Shown: positions 13,411 through 31,940 of the stretch, one piece after another | Layout: the number at the start of each line of letters is the position of its first letter | Numbering within the stretch: the stretch's first letter is position 1 | Virus record (IMG/VR): IMGVR_UViG_3300007276_000155 | Location: 1-33,667 of that record | Direction: 5' to 3' (one strand) | Source of the DNA: a virus | Length of the DNA: 33,667 nt | The notes under the pieces: generated by a model | The model's input: only the letters and a program-made list of their open reading frames with translations | Told to the model about the DNA's origin: nothing | The model's database searches: none | Translations under genes and position numbers: made by a program

Positions 13411-13506
13411 TTAAAATTCATCCTCAATTAATACATACTTTAAAATATATCCTTGAAAATCTGTTGCTGAAAATACCGAAGGATGGAAATAGTCTGTTGA
13501 ACTCAT
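13411..13506 (-). CDS. Mini-ORF, 31 aa, in the tail operon
   Basis: MSSTDYFHPSVFSATDFQGY, then an acidic C terminus ending in DEF. Its ATG overlaps the stop of the gp10-like gene by one nucleotide (TAATG) and it ends 10 bp before the next gene start, filling the only gap between two tail genes. This tight spacing suggests coupled translation. No function can be assigned. Confidence 0.4.
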   Translation of the reverse strand: MSSTDYFHPSVFSATDFQGYILKYVLIEDEF

Positions 13507-14027
13507 TAGCTTTTTGTTACGTTATACCCTGCTTTTGTGAAATTGTCGAAGATCAAATCTTCTAAGTCTGTTACTAATGCAGTTTGTACCAATGGTGGAA
13601 GCATCTCAAATACCTCATTCATTGCCAAACTAAAGAAGCGTACAGGCTTGATACCCTGCTTTGCTATGCTTCTTCGTATCCTTTCAGTTGCTCTTTGCCT
13701 TGTCTCAAATTGACCTTTCTTGTTTCTTGTAACTATTCGCCTTTGAGCTACCCATTTATTGATAGCAGCGTATGGAGGCATCTTTGCCCCTTTGCTTCTG
13801 CCCTCTTCAACTATCCCCGCATAGTCAACGCCTGATTTAAAAGATATGATTATTTTGCCGTCTGTTTGACGAATAGAATATCCTAAACTCTTTGATAGCT
13901 TCCCTGTATTGTCTTTCTTCCTGCCCTTGATCTGACCGTCAAACCCTTTTGTAGCTAGATTCTTTTGAGCCTGTTTCACTACATCCTTGCCGAAGGTATC
14001 AATAACTAATGTAGTCCTTTTAAACAT
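13506..14027 (-). CDS. HK97 gp10-like neck/tail-completion protein
   Basis: 173 residues, basic. The pattern DNTGKLSKSLGYSI, FKSGVDYAGIVEEGRSKGAK, MPPYAAINKWVAQRR and RSIAKQGIKPVRFF is typical of gp10-like/virion-morphogenesis proteins that complete the tail or neck. It is the first structural gene after the inserted cassette array; the tail-completion-like gene at 17765-18205 lies on the other side, so the array interrupts a normal neck/tail gene pair. Confidence 0.7.
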   Translation of the reverse strand: MFKRTTLVIDTFGKDVVKQAQKNLATKGFDGQIKGRKKDNTGKLSKSLGYSIRQTDGKIIISFKSGVDYAGIVEEGRSKGAKMPPYAAINKWVAQRRIVTRNKKGQFETRQRATERIRRSIAKQGIKPVRFFSLAMNEVFEMLPPLVQTALVTDLEDLIFDNFTKAGYNVTKS

Positions 14028-14298: not shown

Positions 14299-14340
14299 GT
14301 ATCAAATTTAGTATGTTCTATACACAATTGTTGGCAGTAA
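14299..14340 (-). repeat. Terminal half-site of cassette array plus shared boundary element
   Basis: On the minus strand TTACTGCCAAC (14340-14330) is the complement of the GTTGGCAGTA that opens the last cassette (14555-14541). It is followed by GTATAGAACATAC and TAAATTTGATAC. The latter part (14323-14299) matches 29546-29522 at about 22 of 25 positions. No loop-type hairpin is present here, unlike the internal junctions. TAAATTTG also fits a -7 promoter box for the 79-residue gene. Confidence 0.6.
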
Positions 14341-14523
14341 TTAGAGATCGTCTACTTGTTTAGAAACTTCATCCCAAAAATCAAGTACTTCTTCACTAAA
14401 ACCACCAACAGAAGAAGTTTCCTTAATCCATTTTTTAAAGTTGTCTTTTGCTTCCTTTATTGTTACTACTCGCCTTTCTACTTCCTTTTTTGCTACTGCT
14501 TTAGCTTTGTTTTTATCTAACAT
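14341..14523 (-). CDS. Cassette gene 9: small hypothetical protein
   Basis: 60 residues, charged and helical (KAKAVAKKEVERRVVTIKEA; ends WDEVSKQVDDL). No family recognised. The cassette opens with GTTGGCAGTAGTTAA (14555-14541) and closes with CTAATTACTGCCAAC (14344-14330), inverted repeats matching at 13 of 15 positions. The stop codon abuts the closing repeat. This is the last cassette of the array. Confidence 0.5.
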   Translation of the reverse strand: MLDKNKAKAVAKKEVERRVVTIKEAKDNFKKWIKETSSVGGFSEEVLDFWDEVSKQVDDL

Positions 14524-14540
14524 AATTTCGTTTTTTTAAA

Positions 14541-14616
14541 TTAACTACTGCCAACACTATGTATAATGCATAGCTCGTGCCTCGCTACGACACCATACAA
14601 GATGCCGTTATACCAC
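14541..14616 (-). repeat. Cassette junction site with large hairpin (no CGTTTTAATG loop)
   Basis: Minus strand: closing arm GTGGTATAAC (14616-14607), then a long imperfect hairpin in which TGTATGGTGTCGTAGC pairs with GAGCTATGCATTATACA around GAGGCAC, then opening arm GTTGGCAGTAGTTAA. Same arm-hairpin-arm order as other junctions but a different, longer stem and no conserved loop. Confidence 0.55.
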
Positions 14617-14766
14617 ATTTGACCACTTCTGCCAAAGTTCGAGTAATTTTAAAAGCCTGTCAATTTTTGCTTTGTATTTTTTAGGAACATTATTTTTACG
14701 TATAGAGTTATCCGAACCAGACAACTCTATACTTACTTGCTTCCAATTTATTAAGTCCTTACTCAT
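14608..14766 (-). CDS. Cassette gene 8b: 52-aa basic protein
   Basis: MSKDLINWKQVSIELSGSDN, then a basic helical stretch (PKKYKAKIDRLLKLLELWQK). Its ATG overlaps the end of gene 8a by 8 bp, indicating translational coupling. The TAA stop is inside the closing arm GTGGTATAAC, so gene and recombination-like site share bases. Two-gene cassettes of this type resemble small toxin-antitoxin or regulator pairs, but no such family was recognised. Confidence 0.45.
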   Translation of the reverse strand: MSKDLINWKQVSIELSGSDNSIRKNNVPKKYKAKIDRLLKLLELWQKWSNVV

Positions 14767-14920
14767 CACTTATATTATTTTCAATTTCTTTTTGAGTGAA
14801 GTTTATATTTTGTTTTAGCTTATTTAAAGCCCAAACAACCTCGATATTTGATTGTAAATTTTTAATAGAGTTTAAGTCCTCTTGCAAGTCTTTTAATAAT
14901 GCTTTTGTTAAATCGTTCAT
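14759..14920 (-). CDS. Cassette gene 8a: 53-aa acidic helical protein
   Basis: Starts MNDLTKALLKDLQEDLNSIK (ATG at 14920, preferred over an upstream ATG at 14974 that would translate the promoter/repeat region) and ends FTQKEIENNISDE. Predicted helical, acidic, no family. Its own promoter-like TAGATTTG and two 15-bp repeats lie just upstream, suggesting independent regulation. It overlaps gene 8b by 8 bp. Confidence 0.45.
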   Translation of the reverse strand: MNDLTKALLKDLQEDLNSIKNLQSNIEVVWALNKLKQNINFTQKEIENNISDE

Positions 14921-14952
14921 TTTATTAGGTTTTGAATTAAACATACGCAAAT

Positions 14953-14999
14953 CTACAAAATAATGTAATACCAACCTAATAAAAATACAAAATAATGTA
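14953..14999 (-). promoter_or_regulatory. Cassette-internal promoter region with two 15-bp direct repeats
   Basis: TACAAAATAATGTAA occurs exactly at 14953-14967 and 14985-14999 (plus strand), 32 bp apart (three helical turns). On the minus strand the proximal copy overlaps TAGATTTG (14955-14948), a TAnnTTTG -7 box for gene 8a. The layout is that of an operator pair around a promoter. Confidence 0.5.
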
Positions 15000-15014
15000 A
15001 AATAATTTAAAAAA

Positions 15015-15074
15015 CGTGGTATAACAACGTGTATAGCACATTAAAACGATGCCATACACAATACGTTGTATGCC
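15015..15074 (-). repeat. Cassette junction site with attC-like double hairpin
   Basis: Minus strand order: closing arm GGCATACAAC (15074-15065), GTATT, inner arm GTGTATGGCA, loop TCGTTTTAATG, inner arm TGCTATACAC, GTT plus a short spacer, opening arm GTTATACCACG (15025-15015). The inner 10-bp stem pairs fully with one G-T pair. This is the clearest site: R''-L''-loop-L'-R' topology as in integron attC, but not classical attC sequences. Confidence 0.75.
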
Positions 15075-15075
15075 A

Positions 15076-15306
15076 TTACTGCTCTATCCAATAACGATTT
15101 GCTTTACAGTCAAGTAACTTCACGCTGTTTATTTCGAGTGTATCTTGGTGACAATCACCTGTAATAGTCTGTAATACTATCCCACCAACATCTATTGAGC
15201 CGTTGGTATTATAAGCATATATTTTACCATACTCAGTCATTGTACCTTCTGGCGGTAAATCTTTATCTAAGTATCTTGCTCTTACAAATTTTGAATCTTT
15301 AGTCAT
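15076..15306 (-). CDS. Cassette gene 7: hypothetical protein, 76 aa
   Basis: Starts MTKDSKFVRARYLDKDLPPE; the upstream ATG at 15348 lies inside the preceding junction hairpin and is rejected. The protein is beta-rich with two cysteines (C50, C68) and ends CKANRYWIEQ; middle YGKIYAYNTNGSIDVGGIVL. No family recognised. Its cassette has perfect private ends: opens GTTGTATGCC (15332-15323), closes GGCATACAAC (15074-15065), 10 of 10 complementary. Confidence 0.5.
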   Translation of the reverse strand: MTKDSKFVRARYLDKDLPPEGTMTEYGKIYAYNTNGSIDVGGIVLQTITGDCHQDTLEINSVKLLDCKANRYWIEQ

Positions 15307-15322
15307 ATCTTTAAAATTTAAC

Positions 15323-15365
15323 GGCATACAACACAAAATAAATTGCATTGAAACGCCAATTTATT
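15323..15365 (-). repeat. Cassette junction site b (tandem with the next)
   Basis: Minus strand: AATAAATTG (15365-15357), loop GCGTTTCAATG, CAATTTATT (15345-15337): a perfect 9-bp stem with a one-base variant of the common loop. Then TTGT and opening arm GTTGTATGCC. No gene lies between it and the neighbouring site at 15366-15418, so the two could flank an empty or deleted cassette. Confidence 0.65.
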
Positions 15366-15418
15366 AATAACGTTGTGCTTCATTAAAACGAAAGCACAAC
15401 ACGTAATATAATTAATGC
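15366..15418 (-). repeat. Cassette junction site a with perfect hairpin
   Basis: Minus strand: closing arm GCATTAATTATATTAC (15418-15403), then GTTGTGCTT (15400-15392), loop TCGTTTTAATG (15391-15381), AAGCACAAC (15380-15372): a perfect 9-bp stem. GTTATTAAT follows as a possible opening arm. Confidence 0.7.
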
Positions 15419-15624
15419 TTAGTTATGTACGCTCCAAATAGTTTTAAGCCAATAGCCCAATAACCCCATTTAATGCCAAGTGCATAAGCAAAACCTAAAT
15501 CACCTACTTCTTCTTGGTTAGCCTCTGCAAATACTAAACTTGGTGTAATTCCAAAATCTAAGTCTTTTGGTTTTTGCTTTAACCCATCTAAGTAAAATGG
15601 GCTTATTTTGTATTTCGTTCTCAT
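15412..15624 (-). CDS. Cassette gene 6: hypothetical protein, 70 aa
   Basis: MRTKYKISPFYLDGLKQKPK, then a Gly/aromatic C-terminal half (FAYALGIKWGYWAIGLKLFG) that may be weakly membrane-associated. No family recognised. The stop codon is inside the closing arm (15418-15403). The cassette opens GTAATATGATTAGTGC (15661-15646) and closes GCATTAATTATATTAC, complementary at 14 of 16 positions. Confidence 0.5.
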   Translation of the reverse strand: MRTKYKISPFYLDGLKQKPKDLDFGITPSLVFAEANQEEVGDLGFAYALGIKWGYWAIGLKLFGAYITKH

Positions 15625-15645
15625 AAATTTTTGTGTTTTAAATTC

Positions 15646-15676
15646 GCACTAATCATATTACCATACGTTACCCTTA
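15646..15676 (-). repeat. Minimal cassette junction lacking the hairpin
   Basis: Minus strand: closing arm TAAGGGTAAC (15676-15667), GTATG, opening arm GTAATATGATTAGTGC (15661-15646). The GTATG spacer matches the GTATT next to other closing arms, but the inner stem and loop are missing; the site looks like a deletion product or a simplified site. Confidence 0.6.
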
Positions 15677-15679
15677 ATA

Positions 15680-16327
15680 TTAAAAAAGGGTTTGTTGCTT
15701 TCTATAAGGTTCTATCCTTTTGTTTGCTTTCTCAAAATAATCCTTATCAATTTCACAAGCAGTTAAGTCATAACCTAAGTCATCACAAGCAATCGCAATG
15801 CTTCCACTTCCTAAATGCGAATCAAATATTTTGTTGCCCTCTTCTGCATATTCATTTAACAGGTATCTATAAAGTTCAACAGGCTTTTGCGTTGGGTGTA
15901 TGCTTCCGCCTTTCTGTGCTATCAATCCTCTATTAAATGTAAATACCCTTGTAGCCTTATTAAAACTACTGTAAGCAAGTTCGCAATCACTCATACTTAA
16001 ACCGTGTTGTCCTTTGTCCCAAACTATCCACCCCATTGTTCCTTTGGTTAGGTGTTCAACAAAATAATTCGCACCCCAAACAATTTGATTTTTAGATATT
16101 CTTTCAAGTTCTCTAAAGTATTCAGCAGTAGGTATTGCATTATCCCACCCTTTGTCTTTATGTGCTTTTCTTTTATGTTTAGGGTTTTTTGTAAAGGTTT
16201 CAGTTTGTCCTGCTCTTGCAATACCATAGGGTGGGTCGACTATTGCAAGGTCAAATTGTTTATCCTCGCATTGCTTCATAAAAAGCAAACAATCAATGTT
16301 GTGTAATTCTATTTTACTTCTGTGCAT
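15680..16327 (-). CDS. Cassette gene 5: DNA adenine-N6/cytosine-N4 methyltransferase (beta class)
   Basis: 215 residues. Catalytic motif IV DPPYG at residues 31-35, target-recognition region in the middle, IHPTQKPVELYRYLL at ~143-157, and SAM-binding motif I FDSHLGSGSIAIA at ~168-180. The order IV-TRD-I marks the beta class; DPPY fits N6-adenine or N4-cytosine methylation by SAM. No partner endonuclease is present, so it is probably an orphan enzyme giving protection against host restriction. The cassette opens GTTACCCTTAG (16356-16346) and closes TTAAGGGTAAC (15677-15667), 10 of 11 complementary. Confidence 0.85.
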   Translation of the reverse strand: MHRSKIELHNIDCLLFMKQCEDKQFDLAIVDPPYGIARAGQTETFTKNPKHKRKAHKDKGWDNAIPTAEYFRELERISKNQIVWGANYFVEHLTKGTMGWIVWDKGQHGLSMSDCELAYSSFNKATRVFTFNRGLIAQKGGSIHPTQKPVELYRYLLNEYAEEGNKIFDSHLGSGSIAIACDDLGYDLTACEIDKDYFEKANKRIEPYRKQQTLF

Positions 16328-16345
16328 AATTCATCTTTTTTAAAA

Positions 16346-16402
16346 CTAAGGGTAACACCGTATAAATTGCATTAAAACGCACTTTATACATGTACGTTAG
16401 CG
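16346..16402 (-). repeat. Cassette junction site with attC-like hairpin
   Basis: Minus strand: closing arm CGCTAACG (16402-16395), TACAT, inner arm GTATAAAGTG (16389-16380), loop CGTTTTAATG, inner arm CAATTTATAC (16369-16360), GGT, opening arm GTTACCCTTAG (16356-16346). The inner stem pairs at 9 of 10 positions. The stop codon of gene 4 is inside the closing arm. Confidence 0.7.
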
Positions 16403-16705
16403 TGAATTTGCACATTCAATAAACCCCTCAATAAATAACTCTCTTTTTTCTTTATTCATATCGTAAAGCCCCATCCAAACTTCGCCTGCACTTCGCATCA
16501 TTTTAGGGTATTTTTTCATAGCTAATTGTTCTAATTCTTCTTTTGAAAAAGAACTCACGCTAACACTATCTATAGGCAATGTTTGCCCTTGCTTTAGTGG
16601 GTAATAGTCATCTATCAGTTCATTTAATTTTGTTGAGTCATGGTCAATGTATCCATGAAACTCTAAGGTTTCCATAAACTCTTTTACTCTTTCTAATTCT
16701 TTCAT
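16397..16705 (-). CDS. Cassette gene 4: hypothetical protein, 102 aa
   Basis: Acidic helical protein: MKELERVKEFMETLEFHGYI, then KQGQTLPIDSVSVSSFSKEE and a C terminus rich in Met, Glu and Lys. The segment GQTLPIDSV is nearly identical to GQSLPIDSV in cassette gene 1, and the DNA leaders of both genes are also homologous. The stop TAA lies in the closing arm (CGCTAACG). No family recognised. Confidence 0.55.
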   Translation of the reverse strand: MKELERVKEFMETLEFHGYIDHDSTKLNELIDDYYPLKQGQTLPIDSVSVSSFSKEELEQLAMKKYPKMMRSAGEVWMGLYDMNKEKRELFIEGFIECANSR

Positions 16706-16721
16706 AATTCGGTTATTTTAA

Positions 16722-16752
16722 GTCGGACAAAAACTACCCATAGATTTAACGT
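16722..16752 (-). repeat. Leader repeat, copy 2
   Basis: Minus strand ACGTTAAATCTATGGGTAG, then TTTTTGTCCGAC. It matches 17670-17640 except for two substitutions over about 31 nt. It starts at the opening arm of cassette 4 and ends shortly before the ATG. It may be a shared promoter/leader or mark the common origin of cassettes 1 and 4. Confidence 0.6.
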
Positions 16753-16792
16753 TGGCACACATTAAAACGATGATGCCAACAATGTATAAACG
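16743..16792 (-). repeat. Cassette junction site with hairpin and extrahelical bases
   Basis: Minus strand: closing arm CGTTTATAC (16792-16784), ATT, GTTGGCA (16780-16774), TCAT, loop CGTTTTAATG, TG, TGCCAAC (16757-16751), opening GTTAAATC. The 7-bp stem is perfect and the 4/2 asymmetry leaves extrahelical bases, as in attC bottom strands. Confidence 0.7.
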
Positions 16793-16804
16793 CAATAAAT
16801 AAAA

Positions 16805-17041
16805 CTACTTCATTCCTAAAATCACAAAACCTTTTTTAAGTCCGTATTTTTCGCAATCTCTAAGAATATAAGTAATTGTTCTATTGCATTCTTTACCTGT
16901 GTATTTAGAGTAATTATATTCAAGAAGTCTTAATTTATCTCCTACTTTATAATCTCTATAATCCTTTCTAACTTCAAAGGTTTTGTTTTCGTTCCATACC
17001 TCACAGAAGTATTGTGGTAATGTTTTAAGTTCGTGTGTCAT
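16805..17041 (-). CDS. Cassette gene 3: DUF3850 (ASCH/PUA-like) protein
   Basis: 78 residues matching DUF3850 along its full length: MTHELKTLPQYFCEVWNENK, TFEVRKDYRDYKVGDKLRLL, the YTGKEC segment, ITYILRD and GLKKGFVILGM. The fold is PUA-like (ASCH-related), so binding of RNA or modified nucleic acid is plausible; no enzymatic role is established. The cassette opens with GTTAGTATAAACG (17072-17060) and closes with CGTTTATAC (16792-16784), 9 bp complementary. Confidence 0.8.
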   Translation of the reverse strand: MTHELKTLPQYFCEVWNENKTFEVRKDYRDYKVGDKLRLLEYNYSKYTGKECNRTITYILRDCEKYGLKKGFVILGMK

Positions 17042-17059
17042 TTCCGTTTTATTTAAAGT

Positions 17060-17097
17060 CGTTTATACTAACTCGTTAGCAACAATTTAATTGCTAT
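17060..17097 (-). repeat. Compact cassette junction
   Basis: Minus strand: closing arm ATAGCAAT (17097-17090), then TTGTTGCTAACGA and opening arm GTTAGTATAAACG (17072-17060). TTAG/CTAA can pair around CGAG. No CGTTTTAATG loop. It belongs to the array by position and by arm complementarity with both neighbours. Confidence 0.5.
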
Positions 17098-17254
17098 TCA
17101 TTTTAACCCACTCATCTTTACAGTGGTTACATTGCTCTTTACACTTACCGTGTCTTGGGTCAGTTTCTACCTCGCAATAAAAAAGATTGCTAACAACGTT
17201 TATAGCACATTGCTTTTTAGTTTTCAATCCAAGTAATTTCTTAATCCAATTCAT
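17087..17254 (-). CDS. Cassette gene 2: 55-aa cysteine-rich protein
   Basis: Starts MNWIKKLLGLKTKKQCAINV and ends KDEWVKMNSN. Five cysteines; RHGKCKEQCNHCKDEW (about residues 34-49) with Cys38, Cys42, Cys45 and nearby His35/His44 suggests a zinc-binding knuckle. Codons for CAINVVSN (AATGTGCTATAAACGTTGTT) match the right half of the junction site at 15015-15045, so the reading frame appears to have grown over an old site. No family recognised. Confidence 0.45.
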   Translation of the reverse strand: MNWIKKLLGLKTKKQCAINVVSNLFYCEVETDPRHGKCKEQCNHCKDEWVKMNSN

Positions 17255-17269
17255 TTATTTTAAATTTAA

Positions 17270-17310
17270 GTTAGTGATAGCAACGTGCCATACACAATGC
17301 GTTAGCAAGC
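17270..17310 (-). repeat. Truncated cassette junction (left half-site)
   Basis: Minus strand: closing arm GCTTGCTAACG (17310-17300), CATT, GTGTATGGCAC, GTTGCTATCACTAAC. TTGTGTATGGCA followed by CACGTT matches the site at 15015-15074 with its loop and right arm removed (about 18 nt missing). The missing right half seems to lie about 90 bp downstream inside gene 2. Confidence 0.5.
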
Positions 17311-17625
17311 ATTAACTTCCTCTATATTTACCCACCAATCGTTATACTGCGGATGGTCTTGGTTTCTATCGTTAGCTAGCAATACTTTTCTAGCTTCTTC
17401 ATTTATTTCAAGCACCCAATAGTACATTCCGTCCCAAATTACCTTTTCATCAATTGAAAAACGCTTGATAACACTATCTATAGGTAATGATTGCCCTTTT
17501 ATTTTGCTGTTAATAATTTGCTCCGCTTTCGTTAAGCCAATTCTGTAATCTCCAGTCCTAACATTTCTGATACTTTCAATTTTAGCTTTATTTATTTCTT
17601 CTAATATCTCTTTTAGTATATTCAT
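17302..17625 (-). CDS. Cassette gene 1: hypothetical protein, 107 aa
   Basis: Start chosen at the ATG at 17625 (MNILKEILEEINKAKIESIR), because the upstream ATG at 17709 would translate the promoter and leader repeat. Contains KGQSLPIDSVIKRF, nearly identical to a segment of cassette gene 4, and an aromatic C terminus (YNDWWVNIEEVNAC). The stop TAA is inside the closing arm GCTAACG. First gene after the array promoter. No known domain. Confidence 0.55.
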   Translation of the reverse strand: MNILKEILEEINKAKIESIRNVRTGDYRIGLTKAEQIINSKIKGQSLPIDSVIKRFSIDEKVIWDGMYYWVLEINEEARKVLLANDRNQDHPQYNDWWVNIEEVNAC

Positions 17626-17638
17626 TTTCAATTTATTT

Positions 17639-17670
17639 AGTCGGGCAAAAACTACCCTTAGATTTAACGT
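17639..17670 (-). repeat. Leader repeat, copy 1
   Basis: Minus strand ACGTTAAATCTAAGGGTAG, then TTTTTGCCCGAC. It differs from 16752-16722 at only two positions. Lies between the array promoter and cassette gene 1; begins with the only opening arm at this end (GTTAAATC). Confidence 0.6.
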
Positions 17671-17680
17671 TAACATTGTA

Positions 17681-17709
17681 CAAATATACGAATAAATAAT
17701 AAGAAACAA
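17681..17709 (-). promoter_or_regulatory. Promoter at the head of the cassette array
   Basis: Minus strand TTG (17709-17707), 18-bp spacer, TATATTTG (17688-17681): good match to the Bacteroidota TTG / TAnnTTTG promoter. It starts directly after the terminator at 17711-17740 and drives the whole array, comparable in position to an integron cassette promoter. Confidence 0.65.
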
Positions 17710-17710
17710 C

Positions 17711-17740
17711 GAAGCCGCCTAAAATTAATTAAACGGCTTC
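17711..17740 (-). terminator. Intrinsic terminator upstream of the cassette array
   Basis: GAAGCCG and CGGCTTC form a perfect 7-bp stem around a 16-nt A/T-rich loop, followed on the minus strand by the T-rich GTTGTTTCTTATTATTT. It closes the transcript of the 146-residue tail-completion-like gene and insulates the array. Confidence 0.65.
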
Positions 17741-17764: not shown

Positions 17765-18205
17765 CTAGATATTAAAACAGGGTTTATCTGTAAAGAAATT
17801 AGGAGTAGCATCTACTCCGCTTAGTGAATTGTTCATTTCGTAATCAAATGGAGCTAATGATATTGTTAAGTCCCCATCAAAGAATGAACGGTCTTGTAAT
17901 ATGTCAAACAGTTTACTAGCTGCCTGAATCATATCAGATTTGATTTCCTTGTCTTTGTCGATTGCGTTATTCCTTGATCCTACAACATCACAAAATCTCA
18001 TGGTAATAGGAATTGTATTTGTCCTTTCGCCTATTGTTATATTTTCATTGGCTATTAAAAACAATCTAGGAAAGTCTTTTGCTTTTGCGTTATCCGGTGC
18101 AAAGTTAAATGTATATTCAGCTGCCACTAATTCTGAATCTGTGAACTCTTCGCTAACTATTGTAATAATATCTTCAATGATTTCTTTTAGGCTTACTTTG
18201 CTCAT
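17765..18205 (-). CDS. Putative tail-completion/terminator-like neck protein
   Basis: 146 residues, alpha/beta: MSKVSLKEIIEDIITIVSEE, KDFPRLFLIANENITIGERT, ITMRFCDVVGS, DMIQAASKLFDILQDRSFFD, and a beta C terminus. Length and the N-terminal helix plus edge-strand pattern resemble tail-terminator/tail-completion proteins. The gp10-like gene normally next to it is displaced 3.7 kb away by the cassette array. It overlaps the upstream gene by 4 bp. Assignment is tentative. Confidence 0.45.
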   Translation of the reverse strand: MSKVSLKEIIEDIITIVSEEFTDSELVAAEYTFNFAPDNAKAKDFPRLFLIANENITIGERTNTIPITMRFCDVVGSRNNAIDKDKEIKSDMIQAASKLFDILQDRSFFDGDLTISLAPFDYEMNNSLSGVDATPNFFTDKPCFNI

Positions 18206-29521: not shown

Positions 29522-29546
29522 GTATTAAATTTAGTATGTACTATAT
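29522..29546 (-). repeat. Shared boundary element, copy 2
   Basis: Minus strand ATATAGTACATAC then TAAATTTAATAC; matches 14323-14299 at about 22 of 25 positions. In both places it follows the last closing arm by 6-7 nt and precedes a small DNA-binding-like gene. Either an insertion target (attI-like) or a promoter; TAAATTTA is a weak -7 box. Confidence 0.6.
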
Positions 29547-29552
29547 TCGGGT

Positions 29553-29566
29553 GTTGTGCGCAATTA
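29553..29566 (-). repeat. Closing arm of the second cassette locus
   Basis: Minus strand TAATTGCGCACAAC (29566-29553) is complementary at 13 of 14 positions to the opening arm GTTGTGCGCAGTTA (29734-29721). The stop codon of the 50-residue gene is the first TAA of this arm. Confidence 0.65.
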
Positions 29567-29716
29567 GGAATCCGCTTTAAGAAACCTAATTGAGTCCTCA
29601 TAGCTTTTTATTAGCCTATCGTATGCACGTACAACTATATCATTTTCTTGCTTTGTTTGTTTCTTTTTAGCCAACCACAAGTGCAGTTGCATAAGTTTTA
29701 TTGTAATCCAAGTCAT
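29564..29716 (-). CDS. Cassette gene 10: 50-aa basic protein
   Basis: MTWITIKLMQLHLWLAKKKQ, then ENDIVVRAYDRLIKSYEDSI. Basic/amphipathic helix, no family recognised. It is the single gene of the second cassette locus: opening arm 5 bp before the ATG, stop codon inside the closing arm. Confidence 0.45.
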   Translation of the reverse strand: MTWITIKLMQLHLWLAKKKQTKQENDIVVRAYDRLIKSYEDSIRFLKADS

Positions 29717-29720
29717 AAAA

Positions 29721-29820
29721 TAACTGCGCACAACAAAGGCTAAAAAGCATAGCCATGCGACTTTTTTACATTTAATGAGGCGTAATTACTTGGCTACGCT
29801 TCTTAGCCAAACCGTTACAT
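29721..29820 (-). repeat. Second-locus cassette site with long hairpin
   Basis: Minus strand: ATGTAAC (29820-29814, carrying the stop of the upstream gene), spacer, GGCTAAGAAGCGTAGCCA (29808-29791), loop of 35 nt, TGGCTATGCTTTTTAGCC (29755-29738), TTT, opening arm GTTGTGCGCAGTTA (29734-29721). The 18-bp stem pairs at 16 canonical positions plus two G-T type mismatches. Same arm-hairpin-arm order as in the main array. Confidence 0.65.
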
Positions 29821-30535: not shown

Positions 30536-30839
30536 TGCTTATAATTTTTAGTTCACTGTTAATTGATATGCTTACTCCTCTTGCAGCTTCTAGTATTTTC
30601 CTTGTTAGTCTTAATTCGGGTACATGAAAGTCCGCTTCAACCTTTGCCGCTGCATTGCTTTTCTCTGAATTAAATACTATTCCATTCCACTTGTTAAAGG
30701 ATTCAATGTTAATTTTTGTTAGATAATACATATTACTTGATAGGCTTCTGCTTAACTCTCGTAAAGCATCAACACTTTGCCACTCGCCCCCTTCATAAGT
30801 GTTTATTATTGTAGTAATGTCGTCTAGTATTTTATTCAT
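30528..30839 (-). CDS. Hypothetical protein downstream of the exonuclease, 103 aa
   Basis: ATG at 30839 preferred (MNKILDDITTIINTYEGGEW), giving an 8-bp overlap with the exonuclease gene; the ATG at 30884 would overlap by 53 bp. SVDALRELSRSLSSNMYYLT and AAAKVEADFHVPELRLTRKI are helical. Position next to a YqaJ exonuclease suggests an accessory recombination protein; no family recognised. Confidence 0.5.
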   Translation of the reverse strand: MNKILDDITTIINTYEGGEWQSVDALRELSRSLSSNMYYLTKINIESFNKWNGIVFNSEKSNAAAKVEADFHVPELRLTRKILEAARGVSISINSELKIISNE

Positions 30840-31461
30840 TTTGAAGTATTTTAATATCTGATAAAACCAACTCTTTAAAGTCATTCATTCTTGATTCCAT
30901 TCTTTCTATAATGTCTTCGTCCTTATAAACTCGACAAATATAAAGGCGTTTTTCTTCAGGCATTTCAGGACAGTATGAAATAAAATCGCACCATTCCTTT
31001 TTACCTATCCAAATATGACCGTGAATTTGCCACTTATAAGAATTATCTATACCTCCTCTTTTTAATCTAGCCCATTGTGTATTAGGAATTACAGATTTAA
31101 CCTCGATACAGCCACTTTCTCCTACATTACCATCTGGACTATCCCCCAATAAAATAGAGTGCTTAGAGTCTTGTATATTAAAGCCGCCATTTTTTACGCT
31201 GTTGAACGTTTCAATCTCATAAAGATTAATAGCAATTGGTTCAAGCTCTATACCATCATCCATGTAGCTATTCCTAAATCCGCTTCTTTCGTCCCTTTCT
31301 CCTGTTACATATTCTAGTGCAACTCTTTGAGCGTATTTCTTAGCAGGCTCGCCAAAAGCTTTACCCTCATTAGCCATTATTTCGCCAAAATGAGATGAAG
31401 TAGCTTTCTTTAATCTTAAATTAAACCACTCTTCTGTGTTTTGAATAACATCTACGAACAT
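30832..31461 (-). CDS. YqaJ/lambda-exonuclease-like recombination nuclease
   Basis: 209 residues from the ATG at 31461 (MFVDVIQNTEEWFNLRLKKA); an upstream ATG at 31494 adds 11 residues. Signature: TSSHFGEIM, GIELEPIAINLYE, LGDSPDG (Asp107/Asp110), IEVKSV (Glu120, Lys122) and YKWQIHGHIW: the PD-(D/E)XK core of YqaJ viral recombinases. It degrades DNA ends 5'-3' so that an annealing protein can act; the annealase has not been identified here. The 162-residue gene before it overlaps by 10 bp. Confidence 0.8.
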   Translation of the reverse strand: MFVDVIQNTEEWFNLRLKKATSSHFGEIMANEGKAFGEPAKKYAQRVALEYVTGERDERSGFRNSYMDDGIELEPIAINLYEIETFNSVKNGGFNIQDSKHSILLGDSPDGNVGESGCIEVKSVIPNTQWARLKRGGIDNSYKWQIHGHIWIGKKEWCDFISYCPEMPEEKRLYICRVYKDEDIIERMESRMNDFKELVLSDIKILQNE

Positions 31462-31940
31462 AACAACAAGTAGTTTTCTTTTGTTATTACCCAATTTTCT
31501 TCTAAAGATTCAAGATTTGCATTACCTTCTAGCACAGCCATTTTAGCCTGCTCCCATCTCTTGTGATCTGGAGTTAATTTAGGCTTCTTAGTAATTGGCT
31601 TAATAGACCTAATTCTAATGCAATCAATTTCTTCTTTTGTTTTGTTGTCTCTTATTGATGTAACGAATAACTGTATCTTTTCTCCTTCGCTATCTTCCAT
31701 AAACTTTGTGCCTGTAGCTTTTAGTATAGATTGTGCGTTAGTTTGATTGCAAATAAGAGGCTTTACCTTTTCCTTGAATCTAATAACTCTCTTAGCTTCT
31801 GATACGTTTATGATAGGATTCTTTACCTCCTCCCATTTTGCGCTCTCTATTGTTAGTATTAAGTCTTCTCCATTTGGTAAATCCCAATGACCTAAGTAGT
31901 TTTTGTTTGGATTTTGCAACCAATGTGTTTTGTTTTCCAT
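31452..31940 (-). CDS. Hypothetical recombination-operon protein, 162 aa
   Basis: MENKTHWLQNPNKNYLGHWD, ILTIESAKWEEVKNPIINVS, EAKRVIRFKEKVKPLICNQT, and a C-terminal helix (HKRWEQAKMAVLEGNANLES). Beta-rich N-terminal region with a DLPNGEDLILTI segment. This protein usually sits directly upstream of a YqaJ-type exonuclease in Bacteroidota phages and may bind ssDNA or be the annealing partner; that role is inference. Confidence 0.5.
   Translation of the reverse strand: MENKTHWLQNPNKNYLGHWDLPNGEDLILTIESAKWEEVKNPIINVSEAKRVIRFKEKVKPLICNQTNAQSILKATGTKFMEDSEGEKIQLFVTSIRDNKTKEEIDCIRIRSIKPITKKPKLTPDHKRWEQAKMAVLEGNANLESLEENWVITKENYLLLCS

Follow-up and report, generated by a model that had tools for sequence, protein, structure and literature searches.

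A probable mobile cassette array of an integron-type system of Bacteroidota in a flavobacterial phage

Classical integrons are tandem arrays of one-gene cassettes whose recombination sites fold through R and L stems with an unpaired spacer, only one strand being recombinogenic; the crossover falls at AAC/GTT, attI lies beside the integrase, and cassettes pass through circular intermediates. Their outer stem is about 7 bp long, and the cut is made at AA|C on the bottom strand. Clusters of attC sites lacking an integrase (CALINs) also occur in phages, and phage cassette arrays are therefore already known: according to Qi et al. 2023, attC clusters lie in Polaribacter phage P12002L, and IntI1 recombined one of the sites, on the bottom strand only (PMC9892861). 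Those clusters resemble the one described here in being integrase-less, rich in methyltransferases and carried by a lytic flavobacterial phage; in contrast, that study used general attC models and IntI1, and the passages of it consulted here mention neither the site family reported below nor its host arrays, recombinase or polarity rule. In Bacteroidota, IntegronFinder 2.0 found integrons to be rare and named one complete Bacteroidetes integron, in Salinibacter (PMC9024848). Here, we analyze a 33,667-base flavobacterial phage record from IMG/VR (IMGVR_UViG_3300007276_000155), referred to in its entirety as the window, in which about nine cassettes occupy the minus strand from an AAC at 17671 to an AAC at 14330. 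The sequence-only reading from which this work started took the block for an integron-like array, and this is largely supported. Most probably, the block is a mobile cassette array of a Bacteroidota integron-type system, residing in a phage without an integrase of its own. Sequence comparison reveals a site grammar and a strand-specific structure, shows that whole cassettes are gained or lost and that a circular contig closes at a site, and finds an attI-like border within the window as well as a recombinase and attI next to host arrays.

The sites conform to the consensus AAC-spacer-GTATAn5-C-GTTTTAAT-G-n5TATAC-NNT-GTT, and a cassette unit would run from the spacer through inner stem L'', the loop, L' and NNT to R' with its GTT, followed by the body and by R'' with its AAC. 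The five loops initially reported, at 15039, 15346, 15381, 16370, and 16760, are all in place on the minus strand. The accompanying claim that each cassette has its own inverted repeat is supported as well, with one correction: on the minus strand between 14000 and 17800, five GTT..AAC inverted-repeat pairs score at least 12, compared with a mean of 0.14 and a maximum of 2 in shuffles of this region (0/300 reach five), whereas the repeat around the DUF3850 gene (16805–17041) and the gene at 15412–15624 has to be reassigned as the inner (L) stem. A covariance model for which only other genomes were used identifies three sites in the window beyond doubt (E 2e-13, 9e-13, and 1e-7) and a fourth weakly (E 0.08), and an Rfam scan of the window returned zero matches. 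With three certain sites and one weak site by the model, about nine by the grammar, and no integrase among the larger window proteins scanned, as anticipated, the block has the makeup of a phage CALIN, namely two or more attC-type sites and no integrase.

R and L stems, an unpaired spacer and strand asymmetry, the hallmarks of attC-type sites in classical integrons, are all present in covariation and G·T tests, in agreement with the attC-like topology first proposed. The sites are nonetheless not classical attC, as had also been stated, for they differ in sequence and in stem length: the outer stem is about 14 bp, position 11 is a fixed G·T, and the GTTTTAAT loop is conserved. Among 19 aligned sites, 98.5% of cells are paired and double changes number 20, compared with 5 in shuffles; sliding the partners abolishes the pairing. 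Outer-stem position 11 is G·T on the loop strand in 191 of 226 cassettes (97/117 host and 94/109 viral) and A·C in none, and all five cassettes of the window whose outer stem is clear have the wobble; at inner-stem position 4, counted from the loop, 50 G·T stand against 1 A·C. Thus, G·T at two positions singles out the loop strand as the folding strand. The pair caller is more lenient to G·T than to A·C, but it needs no more than ten matches to call a pair and so does not depend on position 11, whose wobble is therefore no caller artefact.

That the block splits two neck genes, as suggested at the outset, is confirmed by related phages, which were found by a terminase scan (a neck-gene scan yielded one distant locus). 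In nine of them, with terminases 66–68% identical, the block is missing and the homologues of the genes at 17765..18205 and 13506..14027 lie side by side with a gap of −1 to 24 bp, compared with 3.7 kb in the window. Sister phages differ by whole cassettes: P12002S, analyzed here, and P12002L are 97.6–99.6% identical on the flanks of a difference that consists of exactly three additional cassettes in P12002S. In P12002L, AACGTGTTGTGTAT is fused directly to ATGATTAG, with the joins in AACG..GTAT, and another junction has a cassette common to both phages through AACGT, followed by different neighbours in each. Moreover, the two ends of contig L097 are identical over 123 bases, the largest word size in JGI's MEGAHIT assemblies, so that its 2,170 bp read as a circle. 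It comprises five cassettes of an array, L085, from a different metagenome, closed GTGCATAAC|TAGAATG at TAAC, such that the AAC of the right end is joined to the interior of the left end. All mapped crossovers fall between AAC and GTAT, as they do in attC, the spacer going with either side. To judge from their sequences, L097 and the P12002 indel reflect circular cassettes being excised and integrated in a site-specific manner.

These movements bear on two other explanations. Stable inner-stem hairpins between operon genes could be terminators or RNA signals conserved without mobility, which the sequence-only reading had named as fatal to its own proposal. However, outer stems span genes of 200–700 bp, an empty site, an indel between sister phages and a circular five-cassette contig exist, and the folded strand in hosts is opposite to the transcribed one; ordinary terminators do not suffice, given site-exact excision and strand-specific covariation. 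The terminator-only reading, which we consider scarcely credible, was rejected for these reasons: outer stems enclose genes, and cassettes move. Cassettes could also be shuffled by homologous recombination or annealing between repeated site sequences, given that the window phage encodes a RecE-like exonuclease by profile match (30832–31494) and that cassettes have 5' ends and site stems in common, but the joins share merely 4–5 bases (TAACT; GTAT) at a constant place in the site, and the site structure is strand-specific, which leaves this process highly improbable.

The site family extends well beyond the window. CGTTTTAATG-N5-TATACRTTGTT occurs in 107 viral contigs, almost always with a spacing of exactly five bases, and a somewhat looser pattern in at least 116 genome contigs, chiefly of Flavobacteriaceae and other Bacteroidota, with tandem cassette arrays at host loci in, for example, Aquimarina, Labilibacter, and Maribacter. 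The same grammar is found in Tenacibaculum phage JQ and in P12002S, and one phage JQ cassette has identical first bases, GTTACCCTTAGTTTTAAAAAAGAT, around a different methyltransferase. In a 71-kb viral contig (IMGVR_UViG_3300033388_003553), the model detects at least 15 sites, and the first 12.9 kb contain about 18 cassettes. Single cassette genes also turn up in phage 11b and the elemo phages, with no cassette structure around them; the cassette gene at 15087–15322 of the window recurs at 85.6% DNA identity in unrelated Flavobacterium elemo phages (MT497017), with no recognizable sites.

The check proposed at the outset, a search for a tyrosine recombinase beside the same sites, gave a positive result in host genomes. 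A tyrosine recombinase of 366–410 aa adjoins the array, with its 3' end facing it, in Aquimarina AU58, Robiginitalea, Flavobacteriales ih4, Zobellia, and Maribacter litopenaei; the recombinase-side loops (in Aquimarina, Robiginitalea, Zobellia, Maribacter, and ih4) all have one orientation, and an attI-like hairpin lies within the 40–175 nt that separate the stop codon from the last AAC. An attI next to the enzyme, as in classical integrons, is found in host genomes only. Labilibacter and Natronoflexus have longer recombinases (574–675 aa) beside arrays, where attI is less clear; these enzymes (L262, 310–2337; L263, 52–1776) also resemble a recombinase in their N-terminal half, a second copy that looks degenerate. 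Of eight array-adjacent enzymes, five score 221–241 bits with the XerA-type model NF040815 and thereby exceed its cut-off of 220 bits, with the 336, 574, and 675 aa forms below it, and all eight tested fail the IntI model TIGR02249 at 181–213 bits (cut-off 265 bits). Relative to IntI4, the AU58 enzyme is missing 43 residues, and the IntI insertion is absent. Of the proteins with a solved structure, archaeal XerA is the closest in sequence; from XerA-type recombinases the array-adjacent enzymes differ by an N-terminal extension of about 105 residues and by their location beside cassette arrays. Foldseek does not separate IntI4 from XerA as nearest fold, on a predicted model with unsure domain placement (pTM 0.50). 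In a tree of 36 proteins, a small sample, gammaproteobacterial IntI and IntI1 form a clade (100/100) together with one viral protein, and the array-adjacent enzymes all fall outside it.

The borders of the phage units point in the same direction. The window array ends in AAC-AATTG-TGTATAGAACATACTAAATTTG, and the border of a solitary unit at 29.5 kb reads AAC-ACCC-GAATATAGTACATACTAAATTT; chance would not be expected to produce two border motifs of this kind. The AU58 attI, AAC-A-GAATATAGGACATATG, has 13/14 bases in common with the solitary-unit border, GAATATAGGACATA being the AU58 sequence in this comparison.

Against this background, an ordinary CALIN, in which some member of the host community would supply a classical IntI that moves classical attC cassettes, seems unlikely. 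The topology is that of attC, and Qi et al. (PMC9892861) describe attC clusters in P12002L and recombination of P12002L_attC2, possibly a member of the present site family, with attI1 by IntI1 on the bottom strand only; yet the array-adjacent enzyme lies outside the IntI clade, and IntI exceeds the curated cut-off in 0/20 array-bearing genomes as opposed to 57/143 comparison gammaproteobacteria. The phage cassettes might instead be moved by a phage-encoded tyrosine recombinase, as contig L281 (IMGVR_UViG_3300017782_000056) would suggest, in which a pair of neighbouring phage integrase genes lies about 2 kb away from a site. L281 is the only one of 80 viral recombinase loci with a canonical site, however, and no integrase is annotated in phages JQ and P12002S, which makes a phage enzyme a rather improbable agent. 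The site in L281 adjoins methyltransferase genes. The system appears, from its sequences, to work like an integron with the array-adjacent enzyme as predicted integrase; we do not class it with the classical integrons, since IntI was tested for and the enzymes fall short of it.

Gene orientation separates the phage arrays from those of the hosts. When site-adjacent genes are oriented by the loop strand, 105/109 viral loci have them forward and 102/116 genome loci backward (ratios of 105:4 and 14:102; p = 2e-42). Host order is the canonical one, gene then site, with the folded strand opposite to the transcribed strand, whereas phage order is reversed, a further difference from classical integrons along with the placement of genes in the inner loop. 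For 103 viral site-adjacent open reading frames, the sole genome locus with relatives is L161 (JADBXZ010000137), and the gene in common is a methyltransferase; L161 is a contig of a metagenome-assembled genome that belongs to the minority with phage-type polarity, probably a phage contig binned with that genome. In the present sample, to which the search pattern lends a bias, the phage and host gene pools look separate. We give an even chance to the broader proposal that the hosts have their own Bacteroidota integron lineage, with a XerA-type recombinase without the IntI insertion, a 14-bp outer stem and the fixed G·T, and that the phages keep a separate, polarity-reversed bank of counter-defence cassettes mobilized by host enzymes.

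A mechanism can be proposed on this basis. A circular cassette would fold on the CGTTTTAATG strand alone into a double-stem hairpin, with an outer stem of about 14 bp bearing the fixed G·T at position 11 and an inner stem of 10–11 bp, so that the recombination substrate would be folded single-stranded DNA. A tyrosine recombinase would join sites between AAC and GTAT; cassettes would therefore exit as circles and enter other sites or an attI-like half site (an AAC-spacer-GAATATAG hairpin). In phages, a host XerA-like recombinase may act in trans, and the exchanged genes, often methyltransferases, may serve counter-defence.

Several observations weigh against this interpretation. Recombinase homologues are present in 147/149 Flavobacteriaceae and detectable sites in 61/149, by a model that detects compact sites only, and the association is modest, with sites in 16/26 genomes that have a close homologue and in 45/123 others; because the homologues are nearly universal, the argument is one of physical adjacency rather than of co-occurrence. 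Given their opposite polarity, the phages are not simply sampling host cassettes. The spacer goes with the left partner in the P12002 event and with the right in the circle, and the exact cut is therefore not fixed. The L097 circle could in principle be the assembly product of a tandem duplication.

Within the window, all features of the array lie on the minus strand. The neck/tail gene at its upstream border (17765..18205) is followed by a terminator-like hairpin, GAAGCCGTTTAATTAATTTTAGGCGGCTTC and then T-rich (17701..17740), by TATATTTG (17681..17688), which we take from its consensus to be a Bacteroidota-type −7 box and probably the array promoter, and by the first AAC (17669..17671). Cassettes 1 (17301..17668; gene 17302–17625, outer stem GTTATCAAGCGTT/AATGCTTGCTAAC) and 2 (17075..17300; gene 17087–17254) have genes that begin in the inner loop. 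Cassette 3 (16751..17074) holds the DUF3850 gene in its inner loop, with the stem GTATAAACG/CGTTTATAC and an outer hairpin GTTGGCA/TGCCAAC capped by CGTTTTAATG. Cassette 4 (16396..16750; gene 16397–16705, outer stem GTTAGCGTGAGTT/AATTCACGCTAAC) adjoins a canonical site of 54.7 bits in the covariance model (16352..16400), and the body of cassette 5 (15667..16356) encodes an N6/N4 DNA methyltransferase (15680–16327) within an outer stem of score 18. Cassette 6 (15372..15666) has the 15412–15624 gene in its inner loop, and its outer hairpin, GTTGTGCTT/AAGCACAAC, is again capped by CGTTTTAATG. In cassettes 3 and 6, then, the gene takes the inner loop and CGTTTTAATG the tip of the outer stem, which implies that gene and loop can exchange places in the double hairpin; in the remaining cassettes, the gene lies in the body or starts in the inner loop. 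A canonical site of 36.5 bits (15328..15376) is followed by the body of cassette 7 (15065..15332; gene 15076–15348, outer stem GTTGTATGCCGTTA/TAATGGCATACAAC), and one of 56.6 bits (15021..15069) by that of cassette 8 (14607..15025; two small genes, GTTATACCACGTTT/AAATGTGGTATAAC). The weak site, with a longer loop (14551..14611; 15.8 bits), precedes the body of cassette 9 (14330..14555; gene 14341–14523, GTTGGCAGTAGTTA/TAATTACTGCCAAC). The attI-like half site AACAATTGTGTATAGAACATACTAAATTTG (14303..14332), which matches the solitary-unit border and resembles host attI, closes the array, and the neck gene at 13506..14027 (PHROG Neck1) is the downstream flank. The solitary second unit (29526..29816, minus strand), outside the region first singled out, consists of a site, a body at 29553–29734 (GTTGTGCGCAGTTA/TAATTGCGCACAAC) and an attI-like border of its own, AACACCCGAATATAGTACATACTAAATTT.

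Literature on integrons in Aquimarina, Maribacter, Zobellia, and relatives, with preprints and most subscription journals outside the scope of the search, does not describe these arrays, and the literature searched contains no strand-marked Bacteroidota site family, non-IntI recombinase beside host arrays, reversed phage polarity or excision circle. Two regularities look new, namely the position-11 G·T wobble on one strand and the reversal of gene relative to site between phages and hosts. On these findings, integron-type arrays appear to be present in many marine Bacteroidota and to have escaped notice because neither their enzyme nor their site is of the classical kind. Should the XerA-like enzyme prove to be the integrase, cassette capture at folded sites exists without the IntI insertion, and the origin of single-stranded DNA use by integron integrases would become testable. 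For the phages, exchangeable cassettes, often methyltransferases, would offer a concrete route for the turnover of counter-defence genes.

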